The translations under genes and the position numbers were made by a program. Shown here in pieces: positions 20,969 to 26,823 of a DNA stretch of 40,059 nt (position 1 is its first letter; the number at the start of each line of letters is the position of its first letter). Origin of the DNA: Oscillospiraceae bacterium. Its GTDB lineage: Bacteria; Bacillota; Clostridia; Oscillospirales; CAG-272. The stretch covers positions 1 through 40,059 of the forward strand of contig SVQN01000021.1 in assembly GCA_015065295.1 (NCBI GenBank), read 5' to 3'. A model generated the notes under the pieces. The model made no database searches and had not been told where the DNA came from. It saw nothing but the letters and a program-made list of their open reading frames with translations.

Positions 20969-22663
20969 TTAACCGCCGTAGTTTTCTGCGTACCAGTCGT
21001 TGTAGACGGTAGCGATGGAATTTTCGTTTTCTTCGCCGTCAAGGAGAGAGGTAATCAGTTCGTTATCCTTGAGTTCCTTCTTGATTGCGGAGATTTCTGC
21101 ATCCCATTCTGCATAGGTCAGAGCGTCGATGCGATCCTTGTACTGCTTGGAGAGAGCAGCAAGTTCTTCGATCTGTGCCTTGTTTGCGTCGGTTACAAAG
21201 CCTTCGAACTTCATGAACGGGTCAGACGTGGAATCGAGGTTCTGCTGCTTTGCATAGTCCCAGTGAGACATCGGGATACCTTCGCCCGGGTAAGTCATGT
21301 ATACGTTACCGGTGTTGACGATATCCATCTGATAATCGTCGCTGAGGATGGAGATGGTTTCCTTGGTATCTTCATCATCATATTCCCAGTGTACGCCCTG
21401 TGCACCGTACTGGAGAATGGTGCGGATGTCGGAGTTGGTGTTCAGATAGGTGATGATTTCCATGGAACGTGCAAGGCTCTTGGAGTAGGAGCTTACTGCA
21501 AACATGGAGCCGTAAACGTCTTCTTCGGTCATCATCGGCTTGGTGTGGATGTTTACATAGTATTCGTCTTCGTACTGAGCAGCAACGGAACCGTCACCCG
21601 CTACTACGCCGACTGCAAACTTTTCGCCTTCGTCAACCTTGCCGTCGCCGACATAGCCGAGTTCCTTGAGTTCCTTCATCATACCGAGGGTATTGATGTA
21701 TGCGTTCTGCGTGAAGGTGCTCTTGGGAAGAGCCTTTACGTTGTACGCGGAGCTGTTGGAAAGGAGAGCGGAGATCAGAGAGAATTCGGTCGGGTCTTCG
21801 CCGCAGAATACGATATTCTTGTAGTCAACATCGCCGAGAAGGGGAGTAACGCCTTCCAGATTCTGGGACGCGATATCCTTGATGAAGTCTGCACACTTTA
21901 CGAGAGTGGAGAGATCCTTCGGATTGTAGTCGTACTGTTCAACGAGTTCCTTGTTGACAAGGAGGTATTCGTATTCGCCGACGGGATGGTTGTTCGGGAT
22001 CGCGTAGGTACCGCTGACGTTTGCGAGGCTGAGGTAGGTGGGATAAATATAGGTCTTCAGAATCTTGGAGGTGCCGCTGAGTTCACCGTCAAGCTGCTGA
22101 ATGTATTCGTTTTCGATGTAGCGCAGGTAGTTGTCGTAGCCCTGAACAAGGAAAATATCGAGCTGGTTTGCGCCGACTTCGGGATACTTGATAACGCTGA
22201 TACCGAGTTCGTTGACGATGGTTTCTTCTTCAGCGGCTTCGGTTTCGCCTTCTTCGGTTTCGGGTTCGGTTTCAACTTCGATACCCTGAGCCTTCAGCTC
22301 CTTGAGTTCTTTTCTCTTGCGTTCCGCTTCTTCTTCTTCTGCGATCAGAGCAGCGGCGATGCGTTCAAGTTCGCCGTCGATGGTCTTCTGGTAATCCGCT
22401 TCCGGGATTGCCTTGAGTTCGATGGCGGTGTCAAACTTTGCCTGAGTCAGACGGTTGATCTGTGCTTCTGCGAGTTCGATTGCTTCTTCGGTGGTATTCT
22501 TGCTGGTAGGCAGCCACAGGGAAAGAGTCATGGAAATACGAGCGGCTTCTTCGGTATCCGCCGTTGCTTCAACATCTTCTTCCGTTGCCTGAGACGAACA
22601 TCCGGTGAAGGAACCGAGAGCGAGCATCATGGCAAGCAGCAGGGTTGTGAGCTTTTTATTCAT
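20969..22663 (-). CDS. Extracellular solute-binding lipoprotein (carbohydrate ABC type)
   Basis: 564 aa. The N-terminus is a lipoprotein signal: MNKK, a hydrophobic stretch, then SFTGC with Cys22 as lipidation site. The rest resembles family-1 type solute-binding proteins (SLWLPTSKN..., NYLRYIENEYIQQLDGEL, the C-terminal DWYAENYGG helix). Residues ~108-149 are a Glu/Lys-rich insert (EEEEAERKRKELKELKAQG... then a Glu/Thr-rich stretch), unusual for this family and probably a surface helix or linker. No ABC permease or ATPase is nearby, so it is an orphan or uses a remote transporter. GGAGG precedes the ATG at 22663, and a near-consensus promoter lies 68-96 nt upstream. Confidence 0.82.
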   Translation of the reverse strand: MNKKLTTLLLAMMLALGSFTGCSSQATEEDVEATADTEEAARISMTLSLWLPTSKNTTEEAIELAEAQINRLTQAKFDTAIELKAIPEADYQKTIDGELERIAAALIAEEEEAERKRKELKELKAQGIEVETEPETEEGETEAAEEETIVNELGISVIKYPEVGANQLDIFLVQGYDNYLRYIENEYIQQLDGELSGTSKILKTYIYPTYLSLANVSGTYAIPNNHPVGEYEYLLVNKELVEQYDYNPKDLSTLVKCADFIKDIASQNLEGVTPLLGDVDYKNIVFCGEDPTEFSLISALLSNSSAYNVKALPKSTFTQNAYINTLGMMKELKELGYVGDGKVDEGEKFAVGVVAGDGSVAAQYEDEYYVNIHTKPMMTEEDVYGSMFAVSSYSKSLARSMEIITYLNTNSDIRTILQYGAQGVHWEYDDEDTKETISILSDDYQMDIVNTGNVYMTYPGEGIPMSHWDYAKQQNLDSTSDPFMKFEGFVTDANKAQIEELAALSKQYKDRIDALTYAEWDAEISAIKKELKDNELITSLLDGEENENSIATVYNDWYAENYGG

Positions 22664-22759: not shown

Positions 22760-22943
22760 GCATTTTTTGATGGAATCGCTCCCGAAAAAATACATTTTTC
22801 GTTCAGGCAATCGTTTTCAGGGTTATTTTTTTGTGCATCAAATCCAATTATATTTTTGTGTTTTTGTGGAAATTGACTTTTTTCTTGTATGTTTGCTACA
22901 AATGCAAAGAATATAAAATAGTCAAATAATCTATTTTTATTTT

Positions 22944-23696
22944 TCAGCTGTGAAAATGATGTCCCGGATCGTAGTGATGATGTCCCTCACAGTCCGGATC
23001 ATCGCATTCATGCTCTCCGTGATCGTGGTGGTGGGAATGCTCTTCCTCTGCCTGCATTTCTTCGGCTTCATGGGAGGCAATTTCCTCCATGATTTCCATC
23101 ACGGCTGTGACCTCGTCGAGATCAAGACCGGTGTCGGCGGCAATTTCCTCGGGCGTCGCTTCCCTGCCGAGACGTTCTTCCAGCACCATGTCGCTTTTCG
23201 AGATGACGTTCAGCAGTTCCGTGAGATGCGCGGGAATTCCGCGGATTTCTTCGGTTTCGCGGACAGCGTCTTCGAGTGCCTCCAGAATACGTCCTGCCGC
23301 ATACAGCCGGAAATCGCCGGAAGTATAGCTTTCGACCGCATCCACAAGCCCCAGACTTCCCTCCTGAAGCAGGTCAAGGAAGATCATGCCGCGTCCGGTA
23401 AAACGCTTCGCCGCGCAGACGACGAGACGCAGATTTCCTTCAATCAGTCCGGACTTGACCGACGGATCGCCGTCCGCGAGACGCCGAGCCAGACGGTCGG
23501 TTTCTGCGGCATCCGCTGCCGGGAGAGAGGCGATTTCGGAGAGATACGTTTTTGCGTGGCGGTTGAGCCGGATGCCTTCCTGTTCGAGCATCATTTCCAT
23601 TTCGCCGTAGGTCGGGATCAGTTCCGATTCAAAGACAACATCTTCCGCAGCCGATGCAGCCGCGTCAAACGGTGTCGGATTGTATTCGCTGTTCAT
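22944..23696 (-). CDS. Sigma-70-like RpoD paralogue lacking region 4, with His-rich tail
   Basis: 250 aa. Residues ~41-128 align by eye with RpoD regions 1.2-2.3 (EGNLRLVVCAAKRF, GRGMIFLDLLQEGSLGLVDA), including the part that binds the RNA polymerase clamp. Region 2.4 is degenerate: RpoD's [12 protein letters not shown] is replaced by FRLYAAGRILEA, so the tandem Trp needed to melt -10 DNA are gone. A region-3-like helix set follows (HLTELLNVISK...LGREATPEEIA). Region 4 is missing; residues 220-250 instead hold 12 His and 2 Cys (SHHHDHGEHECDDPDCEG...). It starts 20 nt after rpoD with an AGGGGA site, so it is probably co-expressed. It is likely an RNA polymerase-binding regulator or metal-responsive factor rather than a normal sigma. 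Confidence 0.8.
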   Translation of the reverse strand: MNSEYNPTPFDAAASAAEDVVFESELIPTYGEMEMMLEQEGIRLNRHAKTYLSEIASLPAADAAETDRLARRLADGDPSVKSGLIEGNLRLVVCAAKRFTGRGMIFLDLLQEGSLGLVDAVESYTSGDFRLYAAGRILEALEDAVRETEEIRGIPAHLTELLNVISKSDMVLEERLGREATPEEIAADTGLDLDEVTAVMEIMEEIASHEAEEMQAEEEHSHHHDHGEHECDDPDCEGHHHYDPGHHFHS

Positions 23697-23716
23697 TGTT
23701 TTTCCCCTGTTTCCCG

Positions 23717-24823
23717 TCAGGTCATGTCGTTGAGGAAGCCCTTGAGAATCTTGGAACGGCTCTGGTGACGGAGCTTGCGGAGAGCCTTCGCTTCAATCTG
23801 ACGGATACGTTCACGGGTGATATTGAATTCACGGCCGACTTCTTCGAGGGTGCGGGTACGTCCGTCTTCAAGACCGAAACGGAGCTTGATGACCATTTCT
23901 TCGCGGGGCGTGAGGGTATGGAGAACCTTGTTGAGCTGTTCGCGGAGGAGCTGATAGGAAACGGCTTCCGCAGGGGTCGGGGAGGAATCGTCGGGGATGA
24001 AGTCGCCGAGATGGCTGTCGTCTTCTTCGCCGATCGGGGTTTCGAGGGATACCGGGTCCTGCGCCGCCTTCATGATTTCACGGACCTTGTCCGCGCTCAT
24101 GCCGAGCTTTTCCGCGATTTCGTCAATGGTGGGTTCGCGGCCGAATTCCTGAAGGAGCTGACGGGAGGTGCGGGAAACGCGGTGAATGGTTTCGACCATG
24201 TGAACGGGGATACGGATGGTTCTCGCCTGATCCGCGATGGCACGGGTGATCGCCTGACGGATCCACCAGGTTGCGTAGGTGGAGAACTTGTAGCCCTTGG
24301 TGTGGTCGAACTTTTCAACAGCCTTGATGAGACCGAGGTTGCCTTCCTGAATGAGGTCGAGGAAGTACATCCCCTTGCCGACGTACTTCTTGGCGATGCT
24401 GACAACGAGACGGAGGTTGGCTTCCACCAGTTCGTTCTTTGCGGCTTCATCGCCTTCCGCGATCTTTTCGGCGAGATACGCTTCCCGGTCGGGATCGAGC
24501 AGCGGAATTTTCCCGATGTCCTTGAGATACATACGAACCGGGTCGTCCACGGCAACGCCTTCGTCGGCGAGGAGCTTGTCGATGTCTTCGTTTTCATCAA
24601 CCTCCGGCGTGGGTTCGGCGGTGACATCGTAGGTGTCGTCGTTTTCCAGATAGTTGGTGACTTCGATGCCGCTGTTTTCGAGAACTTCGTAGATTTTCTC
24701 GATCTGGTCGACATCGTAGCCGGAGAATTCTACGGCTTCCATGATATCGTTGTTCGAGAGTGAGCCCTGAGACTTTCCTTTTTCAATCAGTCCCTGCACA
24801 TCGACTTTCTTTTCGTTATCCAT
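23717..24823 (-). CDS. rpoD: Primary RNA polymerase sigma factor (sigma-A/RpoD)
   Basis: The housekeeping sigma factor, 368 aa, typical for Clostridia. Acidic region 1.1 (res 1-90), region 1.2 [11 protein letters not shown], region 2 with [24 protein letters not shown] and [17 protein letters not shown] (Trp186-Trp187 for -10 melting), region 3 [14 protein letters not shown], and region 4 LRFGLEDG...[19 protein letters not shown], the -35 recognition helix. GAGG lies before the ATG at 24823. dnaG is upstream, as in the classical macromolecular-synthesis operon, but a repeat pair separates them. The truncated paralogue follows 20 nt later. Confidence 0.97.
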
Positions 24824-25083: not shown

Positions 25084-26823
25084 TTATGATAATTCTCCGC
25101 GTTTCCTGCGAAGGATATCTTCGAGGGAATCGGAGGAATTTCCTTGTTTGACGGTTTCTTTCCGGAGCGAACGGACAAATGTATCGTACGCCGCTTCGCT
25201 GTTGTCGGACAGTTCGTTCCGCGCGGCAACCATTCCTCCCGCACGTGAGACTTCCTCCGGCGTAAAATCCTCGCCGAGAAGTCCGAGTGTGAAATGTCCG
25301 TTGGCTTCCGCCACTTTTGCGAACAGCCGCCGTCCCAACTCCGTCGTGAAGTCCGCCGTACTCAGCGGGACATTGTCCACCGGCCGCATACAGTATTCCG
25401 GATGGATGAACAGAATCCCGAGAAGGGATTCCTCGATCCGCGCCGCTTTCGGCTGTTTCGCGTAGTCGGGATTGACCCGGTCGGCCAGTCCGGACGTAAT
25501 GCGGATCAGCTCGCCGCGCCGTTTTTTGTCATACTCACGCGAGAGCTTCCGGATGCGCGCGTTCACGTCGGTTTCCAGACTTTTCCTGTCCACCGAAAAC
25601 GCTTTCGCGGTGCGGTCACTATAAATATCCCTCTCGACGGACGAATGTATTCCGGCGATGTAGGTACAGATTTCGGACAGCGCGCGAATCTTTTCCGCAT
25701 CGTTCGCAAGATCGTATTTTTTCATCGTATTTTCGAGGACGTAGTCGAATTTCGACCGGCTTTCCTCGATCAGGGAGCGGAATTTTTCCTTGCCGAATTT
25801 TTTTATGTATTCGTCGGGGTCTTTCGCGCCTTCCATGTGCAGGACTTTCGTTTCCAGTCCCGCCTTTTCCAGAAGATCAATCGCACGCGCCGTCGCCTTC
25901 TGTCCCGCTTCGTCGCTGTCGTAGGAGATGACGACCTTGCCCGTGTATTTCTTGATCGTCCGCGCCTGATCGTCCGTCAGAGCGGTGCCGAGCGTCGCAA
26001 CCGCCATCCCGAATCCGGCGTCGTGGAGCGCGATAACGTCCATGTAGCCTTCGCAGAGGATGAAATAACCCGCGTCGGTATTCTTCGCGTAGTTGAGGGC
26101 AAAGAGGTTCCGGCTTTTCTTGAACGCGGGCGTATCGGACGTATTGAGGTACTTCGGCTTTGTATCGTCGAGAACTCGTCCGCCGAACGCGATGACATTT
26201 CCCGACACGTCAATGATCGGGAACATGACCCGTCCGCGGAAGTAGTCGTAGTAGCCGCGTTCGCTTTTTCCGGCGAAATAGGCGGTCTGGATTTCCTGCG
26301 GCTTGAAGCCGAGCGAGGTCAGATGATTCAGCATCCGGTTTCCCGACGGCGGCGAATACCCCAGCCCGAACCGCTTGATTGCCATCATACTCAGACCGCG
26401 GTCGATAAAATACCGCCGTCCCGCCGCGCCCATGTTGTCGTCAAACAGCATTTTCCGGTAAAATTTCGCGGCTTCGAGGTTCATCTGAAGAACGCGGGTG
26501 CGTGTCACGCCGTCACTGCGCTGGTATTCGCCATCATCCGGAAGGGTGATCCCGGCGCGCTTGGCAAGTGTTTCGATTGCCGCACGGTAGTCGAGATTTT
26601 CCGTCCGCATGACGAAATTGATTACGTCGCCGCCCGCCCCGCAGCCAAAGCAGTAGAAACTCTGCGTTTCCGGATACACGGTGAACGACGGCGTTTTTTC
26701 GCTGTGGAACGGACACAGCCCCTTGAGATTGGAACCTGCCCGCTTCAGGGAAACATACGAAGAAATCACGCTTTCGATATCGCAGCGATACCGCAGATCT
26801 TCGATTACACTTGCCGGAATCAT
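25084..26823 (-). CDS. dnaG: DNA primase
   Basis: DnaG lays RNA primers at the fork. 579 aa. The N-terminal CHC2 zinc finger is CPFHSEKTPSF...FYCFGCG (res ~37-64). The TOPRIM polymerase core has FGGRVL, ILCEGYMDVIALH (catalytic Glu), GTALTDDQ and SYDSDEAGQKA (metal-binding DxD). A C-terminal helicase-binding region follows but is weakly conserved, as usual. The ATG at 26823 has GGAGGA in front. Order dnaG-rpoD is the classical arrangement. The antisense frame covering it is a shadow. Confidence 0.97.
   Translation of the reverse strand: MIPASVIEDLRYRCDIESVISSYVSLKRAGSNLKGLCPFHSEKTPSFTVYPETQSFYCFGCGAGGDVINFVMRTENLDYRAAIETLAKRAGITLPDDGEYQRSDGVTRTRVLQMNLEAAKFYRKMLFDDNMGAAGRRYFIDRGLSMMAIKRFGLGYSPPSGNRMLNHLTSLGFKPQEIQTAYFAGKSERGYYDYFRGRVMFPIIDVSGNVIAFGGRVLDDTKPKYLNTSDTPAFKKSRNLFALNYAKNTDAGYFILCEGYMDVIALHDAGFGMAVATLGTALTDDQARTIKKYTGKVVISYDSDEAGQKATARAIDLLEKAGLETKVLHMEGAKDPDEYIKKFGKEKFRSLIEESRSKFDYVLENTMKKYDLANDAEKIRALSEICTYIAGIHSSVERDIYSDRTAKAFSVDRKSLETDVNARIRKLSREYDKKRRGELIRITSGLADRVNPDYAKQPKAARIEESLLGILFIHPEYCMRPVDNVPLSTADFTTELGRRLFAKVAEANGHFTLGLLGEDFTPEEVSRAGGMVAARNELSDNSEAAYDTFVRSLRKETVKQGNSSDSLEDILRRKRGELS

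Follow-up and report, generated by a model that had tools for sequence, protein, structure and literature searches.

A short sigma factor paralogue without region 4, encoded beside rpoD in Oscillospiraceae, as a possible non-initiating binder of RNA polymerase

Results

A short sigma paralogue lies directly downstream of rpoD

A stretch of 40,059 nucleotides (the window; contig SVQN01000021.1 of assembly GCA_015065295.1, from an Oscillospiraceae bacterium) was analyzed, with attention to a short paralogue of the principal sigma factor. The gene is an open reading frame (ORF) of 250 amino acids (aa) at 22944-23696 on the minus strand, and its assignment as an rpoD2 ortholog without region 4 relies on the ORF itself, on Pfam matches to sigma regions 2 and 3, and on orthologs in two other genomes, G012 (locus L045, 1362-2096, where the real start is probably the second Met) and G022 (locus L055, 5209-5937). 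A first-pass annotation, made from the DNA letters, had placed this ORF downstream of rpoD, and indeed it is a real one on the minus strand, 20 nt downstream of the stop codon of rpoD (23717-24823, minus), the principal sigma factor gene, in whose product Pfam detected regions 1.1, 1.2, 2, 3 and 4. Because of this 20-nt gap (23697-23716, minus), of the AGGGGA that precedes the ATG of the short gene, and of the lack of any promoter- or terminator-like site when the gap was scanned, we infer that both genes are co-transcribed.

Upstream of rpoD, dnaG (25084-26823, minus) was identified by Pfam and synteny in a conserved gene order. The conserved downstream neighbor of the short gene is a large lipoprotein-like ORF (20969-22663, minus) without Pfam match, preceded by a promoter-like site of its own (TTGACA-17-TACAAT, 22759-22731). 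This lipoprotein-like ORF contains an acidic insert and adjoins the rpoD pair across the genus.

The short gene occupies the usual place of a tandem rpoD2

The surroundings of rpoD were compared in 25 genomes of the genus. In 22 of them rpoD was directly followed by a second sigma-A-type gene, referred to as rpoD2 (the first gene of the pair is cut by the contig end in G010, G014, G020 and G023, which are counted among the 22); no rpoD-like pair was found in G005 and G015, and G018 showed a second-type copy alone, at a contig end. The second gene of these 22 pairs encodes region 4 and the Trp pair (WW) of region 2.4 in 18 genomes, is cut by the contig end in G019, and has the short form in the remaining three, namely the window genome, G012 and G022. 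Full-length rpoD2 proteins have 352-378 aa in 17 copies, the frame of the eighteenth (L043) continuing from the contig start, and all 18 copies complete at the C-terminal end have both region 4 and WW. Directly after the second gene, 21 of the 22 genomes have the lipoprotein-like ORF (the contig of G019 ends there), as does G018. In 16 of the 22, dnaG, whole or partial, lies upstream of rpoD, the contigs of the other six ending too near rpoD. As it lies between rpoD and the lipoprotein-like ORF, the short gene occupies the usual place of rpoD2, and since orthologs in the same slot are found in two further species of the genus, the short form is not a chance occurrence. An assembly-error fragment was also considered and rejected, as the short form was detected in three separate genomes with differing sequence. 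When conservation of the domain order and of the rpoD neighborhood was looked for in relatives, the slot was thus recovered in 22 of 25 genomes and the loss of regions in three species, but the C-terminal tail described below was not shared.

The short form of the window is closer to rpoD2 than to its own rpoD in two regions. In region 1.2 it has 10 of 26 positions identical to the rpoD2 copies L036 and L037 versus 7 of 26 to its own rpoD, and in region 3.1 these figures are 17-18 of 41 and 13 of 41. In a maximum likelihood (ML) tree the three short forms cluster together, inside the rpoD2 clade of the genus; one sigma-like sequence, L066 (from G048), was omitted from this tree and from the charge and residue counts below because of its long branch in an earlier tree. 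The best explanation of these comparisons is that the short gene is an ortholog of the tandem rpoD2 that is standard in the genus. A profile built from the three short forms was further searched against 394 genomes of the order, and among the matches listed none came near the 456 bits of the window protein, the next one reaching 163 bits in a frame of 413 aa and every other having at least 332 aa; no further genome of the genus appeared among them.

The short forms lost the DNA-reading regions and kept the region 2.2 block

Pfam matched the short protein above the cut-off with Sigma70_r2 (37.3 bits) and Sigma70_r3 (41.1 bits), and detected no region 4, 1.1 or 1.2 in it. The region 2 family (PF04542) was above the cut-off in the three short forms, whereas region 4 (PF04545) and region 1.2 (PF00140) were matched by none of them. 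The top NCBIfam model was RpoD (PRK09210), with 129 bits, far below its cut-off of 572 bits. No relic of region 4 was found downstream of the stop codon in any of the three species, the best tblastn match having an E value of 0.038 and 25% identity over 32 residues, so Pfam and the downstream DNA agree with the absence of region 4 that had been proposed. The region 3.2 finger motif is also missing.

The replacement of region 2.4 by FRLYAAGRILEA, with loss of the Trp pair, was found exactly as the first-pass annotation had described it, and WW is lost in all three short forms. The accompanying idea that regions 1.2 to 2.3 and a region-3-like segment are kept stands for regions 2 and 3, but region 1.2 is weakly kept, and region 2.3 is altered in addition to 2.4. 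The region 2.2 helix, presumed to be the grip on the beta' clamp, spans residues 106-123 (FLDLLQEGSLGLVDAVES; 23328-23381, minus) according to the alignment and the predicted model, and the three short forms agree in all of its first 13 residues, FLDLLQEGSLGLV, the last five being variable. The altered segment 2.3-2.4, acidic and without both Trp, comprises residues 129-150 in the alignment (23247-23312, minus), and a region 3.1-like segment, supported by Pfam and alignment, residues 161-210 (23067-23216, minus).

Near-invariant positions (95% in 62 other sigma sequences) were unevenly retained, in such a way that 17 of 29 were kept by all three short forms in 2.1-2.2 versus 7 of 29 in 2.3-3.0 (Fisher p 0.016, though the positions share one history), with only 4 of 18 in 2.3-2.4. 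Elsewhere, 2 of 7 were kept in region 1.2, 2 of 5 in the link between 1.2 and 2.1, and 2 of 4 in 3.1. Using the numbering of the window rpoD, D156, Q159 and E160 of the region 2.2 helix are among the retained residues, N162, K167 and K171 are among those lost from 2.1-2.2, and N136 is kept in the window only. The net charge of region 2.3-3.0 in the short forms was -4, -9 and -8, and in 61 other sequences it averaged +2.8 (range +1 to +4); L066, left out of this comparison, has +3. Between pairs of short forms, 31-38 of 44 positions are identical in 2.1-2.2, 13-15 of 22-23 in 2.3-2.4 and 33-36 of 41 in 3.1, and a FESELIP segment before region 1.2 is also conserved among them.

The short gene is constrained as a coding sequence, but loosely

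All the indels among the three short forms are in frame, no internal stop was detected, and the position of the stop codon is conserved. The ratio of nonsynonymous to synonymous substitutions (dN/dS), calculated with the dS of the gene itself, was 0.17, 0.17 and 0.19 in the three pairs (0.18, 0.17 and 0.19 from pairwise alignments), whereas its dN exceeded that of rpoD by factors of 22, 17.8 and 9.6 in these pairs. For rpoD2 copies bearing region 4, the own-dS ratio was 0.05-0.16 in seven pairs (one with dS above 4), it rose to 0.32-0.33 in two pairs involving G002, and one further rpoD2 pair was saturated. As the own-dS ratio is low, yet dN far exceeds that of rpoD and the ratio rises with the dS of the neighboring gene (see Discussion), the short gene is constrained at the sequence level, but loosely.

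The dS of the short gene itself was 0.93-1.51, compared to 0.29-0.45 for rpoD and 0.32-0.58 for the next gene in the same pairs. A second fast-evolving rpoD2 lineage was noticed in G002 (L035:6011-7138) and G018 (L051:4239-5096), the G018 copy keeping WW and region 4 and having lost the region 3.2 finger motif.

The predicted model keeps a sigma-2 fold

An AlphaFold model of the short protein, made from window proteins only with an alignment of three rows that included rpoD, had a mean predicted local distance difference test (pLDDT) of 78.1 and a predicted template modeling score of 0.61. A helix was placed at residues 106-123, and residues 221-232 and 236-250 were below a pLDDT of 50. The sigma-2 part superimposed on solved sigma chains with a root-mean-square deviation (rmsd) of 2.1 over 105 residues (7xya_F) and of 2.1 over 93 residues (5h6x_B), so that the short form is predicted to keep the sigma-2 fold; the relative placing of its parts is unreliable, as the longer structural matches had rmsd values of 7-9.

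The His/Cys-rich tail is restricted to the window copy

The first-pass annotation counted 12 His and 2 Cys in residues 220-250 (22947-23039, minus), correctly, and proposed from them a metal-linked brake. This tail belongs to the window copy only, with 12 His and 2 Cys in its last 40 residues against 2 and 0 in G012 and none of either in G022, which rules out a metal switch as a conserved property. The tails of the three short forms are acidic and share only G245 and S250 (window numbering) at the tip. By eye, the window tail carries two similar DPGHH-like tips, DPDCEGHHHYDPGHHFHS, and this repetition suggests a local expansion. The His/Cys tail is best explained as a species-specific extension outside any conserved mechanism, and the metal-linked system is not supported, since the tail is missing from both orthologs, besides being mostly below a pLDDT of 50. 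So the loss of regions is common to three species and the tail is not.

Other features and sigma genes

Just past the stop codon of the short gene there is an A/T-rich dyad of 23 bp, AAAATAGATTATTTGACTATTTT (22915-22937, no strand assigned), identical in the three short-form species and present at one place per genome in them; in the only other genomes checked, G003 and G004, its gapped pattern was not found. RNA folding of this stretch was no better than that of shuffled sequences in the window and G022, and somewhat better in G012 (z -2.2). An operator or a signal for a 3' end would be possible roles of the dyad. From the end of the ORF to the next gene the mean column identity among the short-form species is 84%, so the surroundings are otherwise well conserved.

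Side-by-side sigma-A-type pairs were also seen in other genera of the family and order (G025, G058, G066, G047, G075, G044 and G090; loci L058, L060, L061, L062, L063, L064 and L065). In four of them (L058, L060, L063 and L064) the earlier tree, which included L066, joins the two copies as sister sequences, so this duplication seems to recur. L066 (3482-4522, in G048) encodes a sigma-like protein with region 2.4 replaced, no Pfam region 2, and regions 3 and 4 kept, and it adjoins an ORF named by eye as cytidylate-kinase-like (cmk); a match with 54% identity (L105, in G166) was found in one of 147 genomes, others among the matches listed having 26-35%. A further, more distant rpoD-like gene, perhaps foreign, lies on another contig (C302) of G020, at L068:3475-4608, and the contamination of this genome is 6%.

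A phage origin of the short gene was considered and no source was indicated. A tblastn search against 50,697 phage records gave 49 matching records, all below 60% identity; no record covered 80% of the query at a single place, and the best 12 of the 49 had 34-43% identity, and 10 of these were "Bacteriophage sp." from faecal samples. PHROGs and PADLOC returned only sigma-factor models for the short protein, that of PADLOC being MzaA.

Discussion

In the light of the roles of sigma-70 residues, rpoD2 has lost, in a group of three species, region 4, the finger of region 3.2 and the surface of 2.3-3.0 that reads DNA, and is predicted to keep the sigma-2 fold with the region 2.2 helix, along with the region 3.1-like segment. 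NusG and sigma share a site on the clamp helices of the polymerase. The short form would be unable to melt the -10 element, would probably still bind the beta' clamp helices and, made next to rpoD, might be a non-initiating occupant of the clamp-helix site, weakening sigma-A, or elongation factors of the clamp helices, NusG among them, and starting no transcription. Its effect could be to limit sigma-A, to free core enzyme for other sigmas, or to touch the elongation factors that sit on the clamp helices. Passages of PMC4598750 place the main interface between sigma-2 and polymerase at the region 2.2 helix and the beta' coiled-coil, and describe 2.3-2.4 as the reader of the -10 element; as the short form keeps this interface and has the charge of the reader reversed, a non-initiating clamp binder can be proposed. 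The shared loss of regions, the coding constraint, the identical FLDLLQEGSLGLV block and the predicted sigma-2 fold make a core-binding protein unable to open promoters plausible. We favor, tentatively and with doubt slightly outweighing confidence, an rpoD2 that gave up promoter recognition and was retained as a non-initiating binder of the beta' clamp. The more specific proposal, a DNA-blind occupant of the clamp helices that blocks rebinding of sigma-A or rivals NusG-type factors, and hence a transcription inhibitor derived from a duplicated principal sigma, is possible but doubtful.

Several observations weigh against the clamp-binding proposal. Calculated with the downstream gene's dS of 0.56, 0.58 and 0.32, the dN/dS of the short gene becomes about 0.46, 0.45 and 0.55, a much looser constraint. 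An approximately unbiased test leaves affinity of the short forms with rpoD possible (p 0.29), as expected for a long branch over 178 columns, and the presence of rpoD in the alignment of the model may have pulled the prediction to a sigma fold. Among the short forms, region 3.1 is conserved to the same degree as 2.1-2.2, and selection may therefore act on a function located elsewhere. Moreover, a protein without regions 3.2 and 4 should bind core much less tightly than sigma-A does, and as these contacts are gone and the protein is presumably translated from the same message as rpoD, simple competition with sigma-A is doubtful and may be weak.

The short gene could instead be a slowly decaying, relaxed rpoD2, with little or no function since its C-terminal loss and a residual constraint due to translation beside rpoD. 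The excess of dN over rpoD (9.6-22 times), the ratios of about 0.45-0.55 with the neighboring dS, the fast rpoD2 of G002, the G018 copy without finger motif and the 84% identity of the DNA after the ORF would fit such a decay, but an own-dS ratio of 0.17-0.19, three species without frameshift or internal stop, the conserved stop position and the identity of the 13-residue core-grip block would not, and random loss does not predict a directed reversal of charge, so we consider decay rather unlikely. A kept sigma-2 fold with a lost DNA surface would also suit a mimic that binds an anti-sigma factor or an adaptor rather than polymerase, freeing the true sigma in the manner of PhyR and NepR, for which PMC4598750 provides a precedent in the passages on PhyR, and the FESELIP segment and region 3.1 could form the binding surface. 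PhyR, however, has sigma-2, sigma-4 and receiver domains, the short form has only Pfam regions 2 and 3, and a Pfam scan of six window genes, without a genome-wide search, showed no anti-sigma-like neighbor; we regard such mimicry as quite unlikely.

Another possibility is that the short form is half of a split sigma with a separate region-4 partner, as SigO-RsoA of Bacillus subtilis, whose domains are divided as "sigma2, sigma3; sigma4" in a passage of PMC10141391, and it does have the sigma-2 and sigma-3 parts only. But the -10 melting residues that any split sigma needs are lost, and no region-4-only partner is adjacent. Five region-4 matches with frames of up to 141 aa were found in G000, G012 and G022, genomes 71-74% complete, and none of the four inspected was partner-like, the fifth (a 54-aa frame near a contig end, below the cut-off) and the larger matches not being inspected. 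The four look, we presume, like a short helix-turn-helix protein, the end of a LuxR-type regulator, a DUF134-like and a YlxM-like protein, and a split sigma appears very improbable. Least probable of all, to the point of being scarcely credible, is a brake in which core binding is switched by Zn or Ni on the tail: the window copy, with 12 His and 2 Cys within 31 residues, invites it, but the ends of the orthologs hold two His at most and no Cys, and a mostly disordered-scoring tail with a repeated tip fits a local expansion better.

If core binding by the short form is true, this would be a natural sigma factor turned into its own competitor, showing how much of sigma can go while the core grip stays, and sigma competition could become directly testable with one small protein. 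Attention is also drawn to the second, tandem gene of sigma-A type, a standard feature of the genus. Among the papers listed by searches of the open-access literature, none was seen to describe a region-4-less rpoD paralogue beside rpoD or the tandem rpoD2 of this genus.

Among known systems, the short form resembles the group 1 and 2 sigma-70 factors (RpoD/SigA, RpoS) in its Pfam regions 2 and 3, its top RpoD model and its predicted sigma-2 fold, and differs from them in lacking region 1.1, region 4, the 3.2 finger and the Trp pair of 2.4, and in its acidic DNA-facing surface. With the full-length tandem rpoD2 it shares the slot between rpoD and the lipoprotein-like ORF, a closer similarity in regions 1.2 and 3.1 and, as far as the ML tree shows, the clade, but not the length of 352-378 aa, region 4 or WW. 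The anti-sigma factors Rsd and AlgQ, which are not known to be derived from sigma themselves, would be similar in reducing sigma-70-type transcription. Passages of PMC4598750 describe Rsd and AlgQ as binding and sequestering sigma-70, and PhyR as a protein with sigma-2, sigma-4 and receiver domains that acts on NepR. Sigma mimics such as PhyR and split sigmas such as SigO-RsoA are, according to passages of PMC4598750 and PMC10141391, kinds already known. Like PhyR, the short form would resemble a sigma factor without being one, but by Pfam it has sigma-2 and sigma-3 parts only, with no sigma-4-like part or receiver domain. As in SigO-RsoA (PMC10141391, in the passage on its domains), one protein is left without region 4, but a split sigma must still open promoters, and no convincing partner for the short form was found beside it or among the four short region-4 matches inspected.
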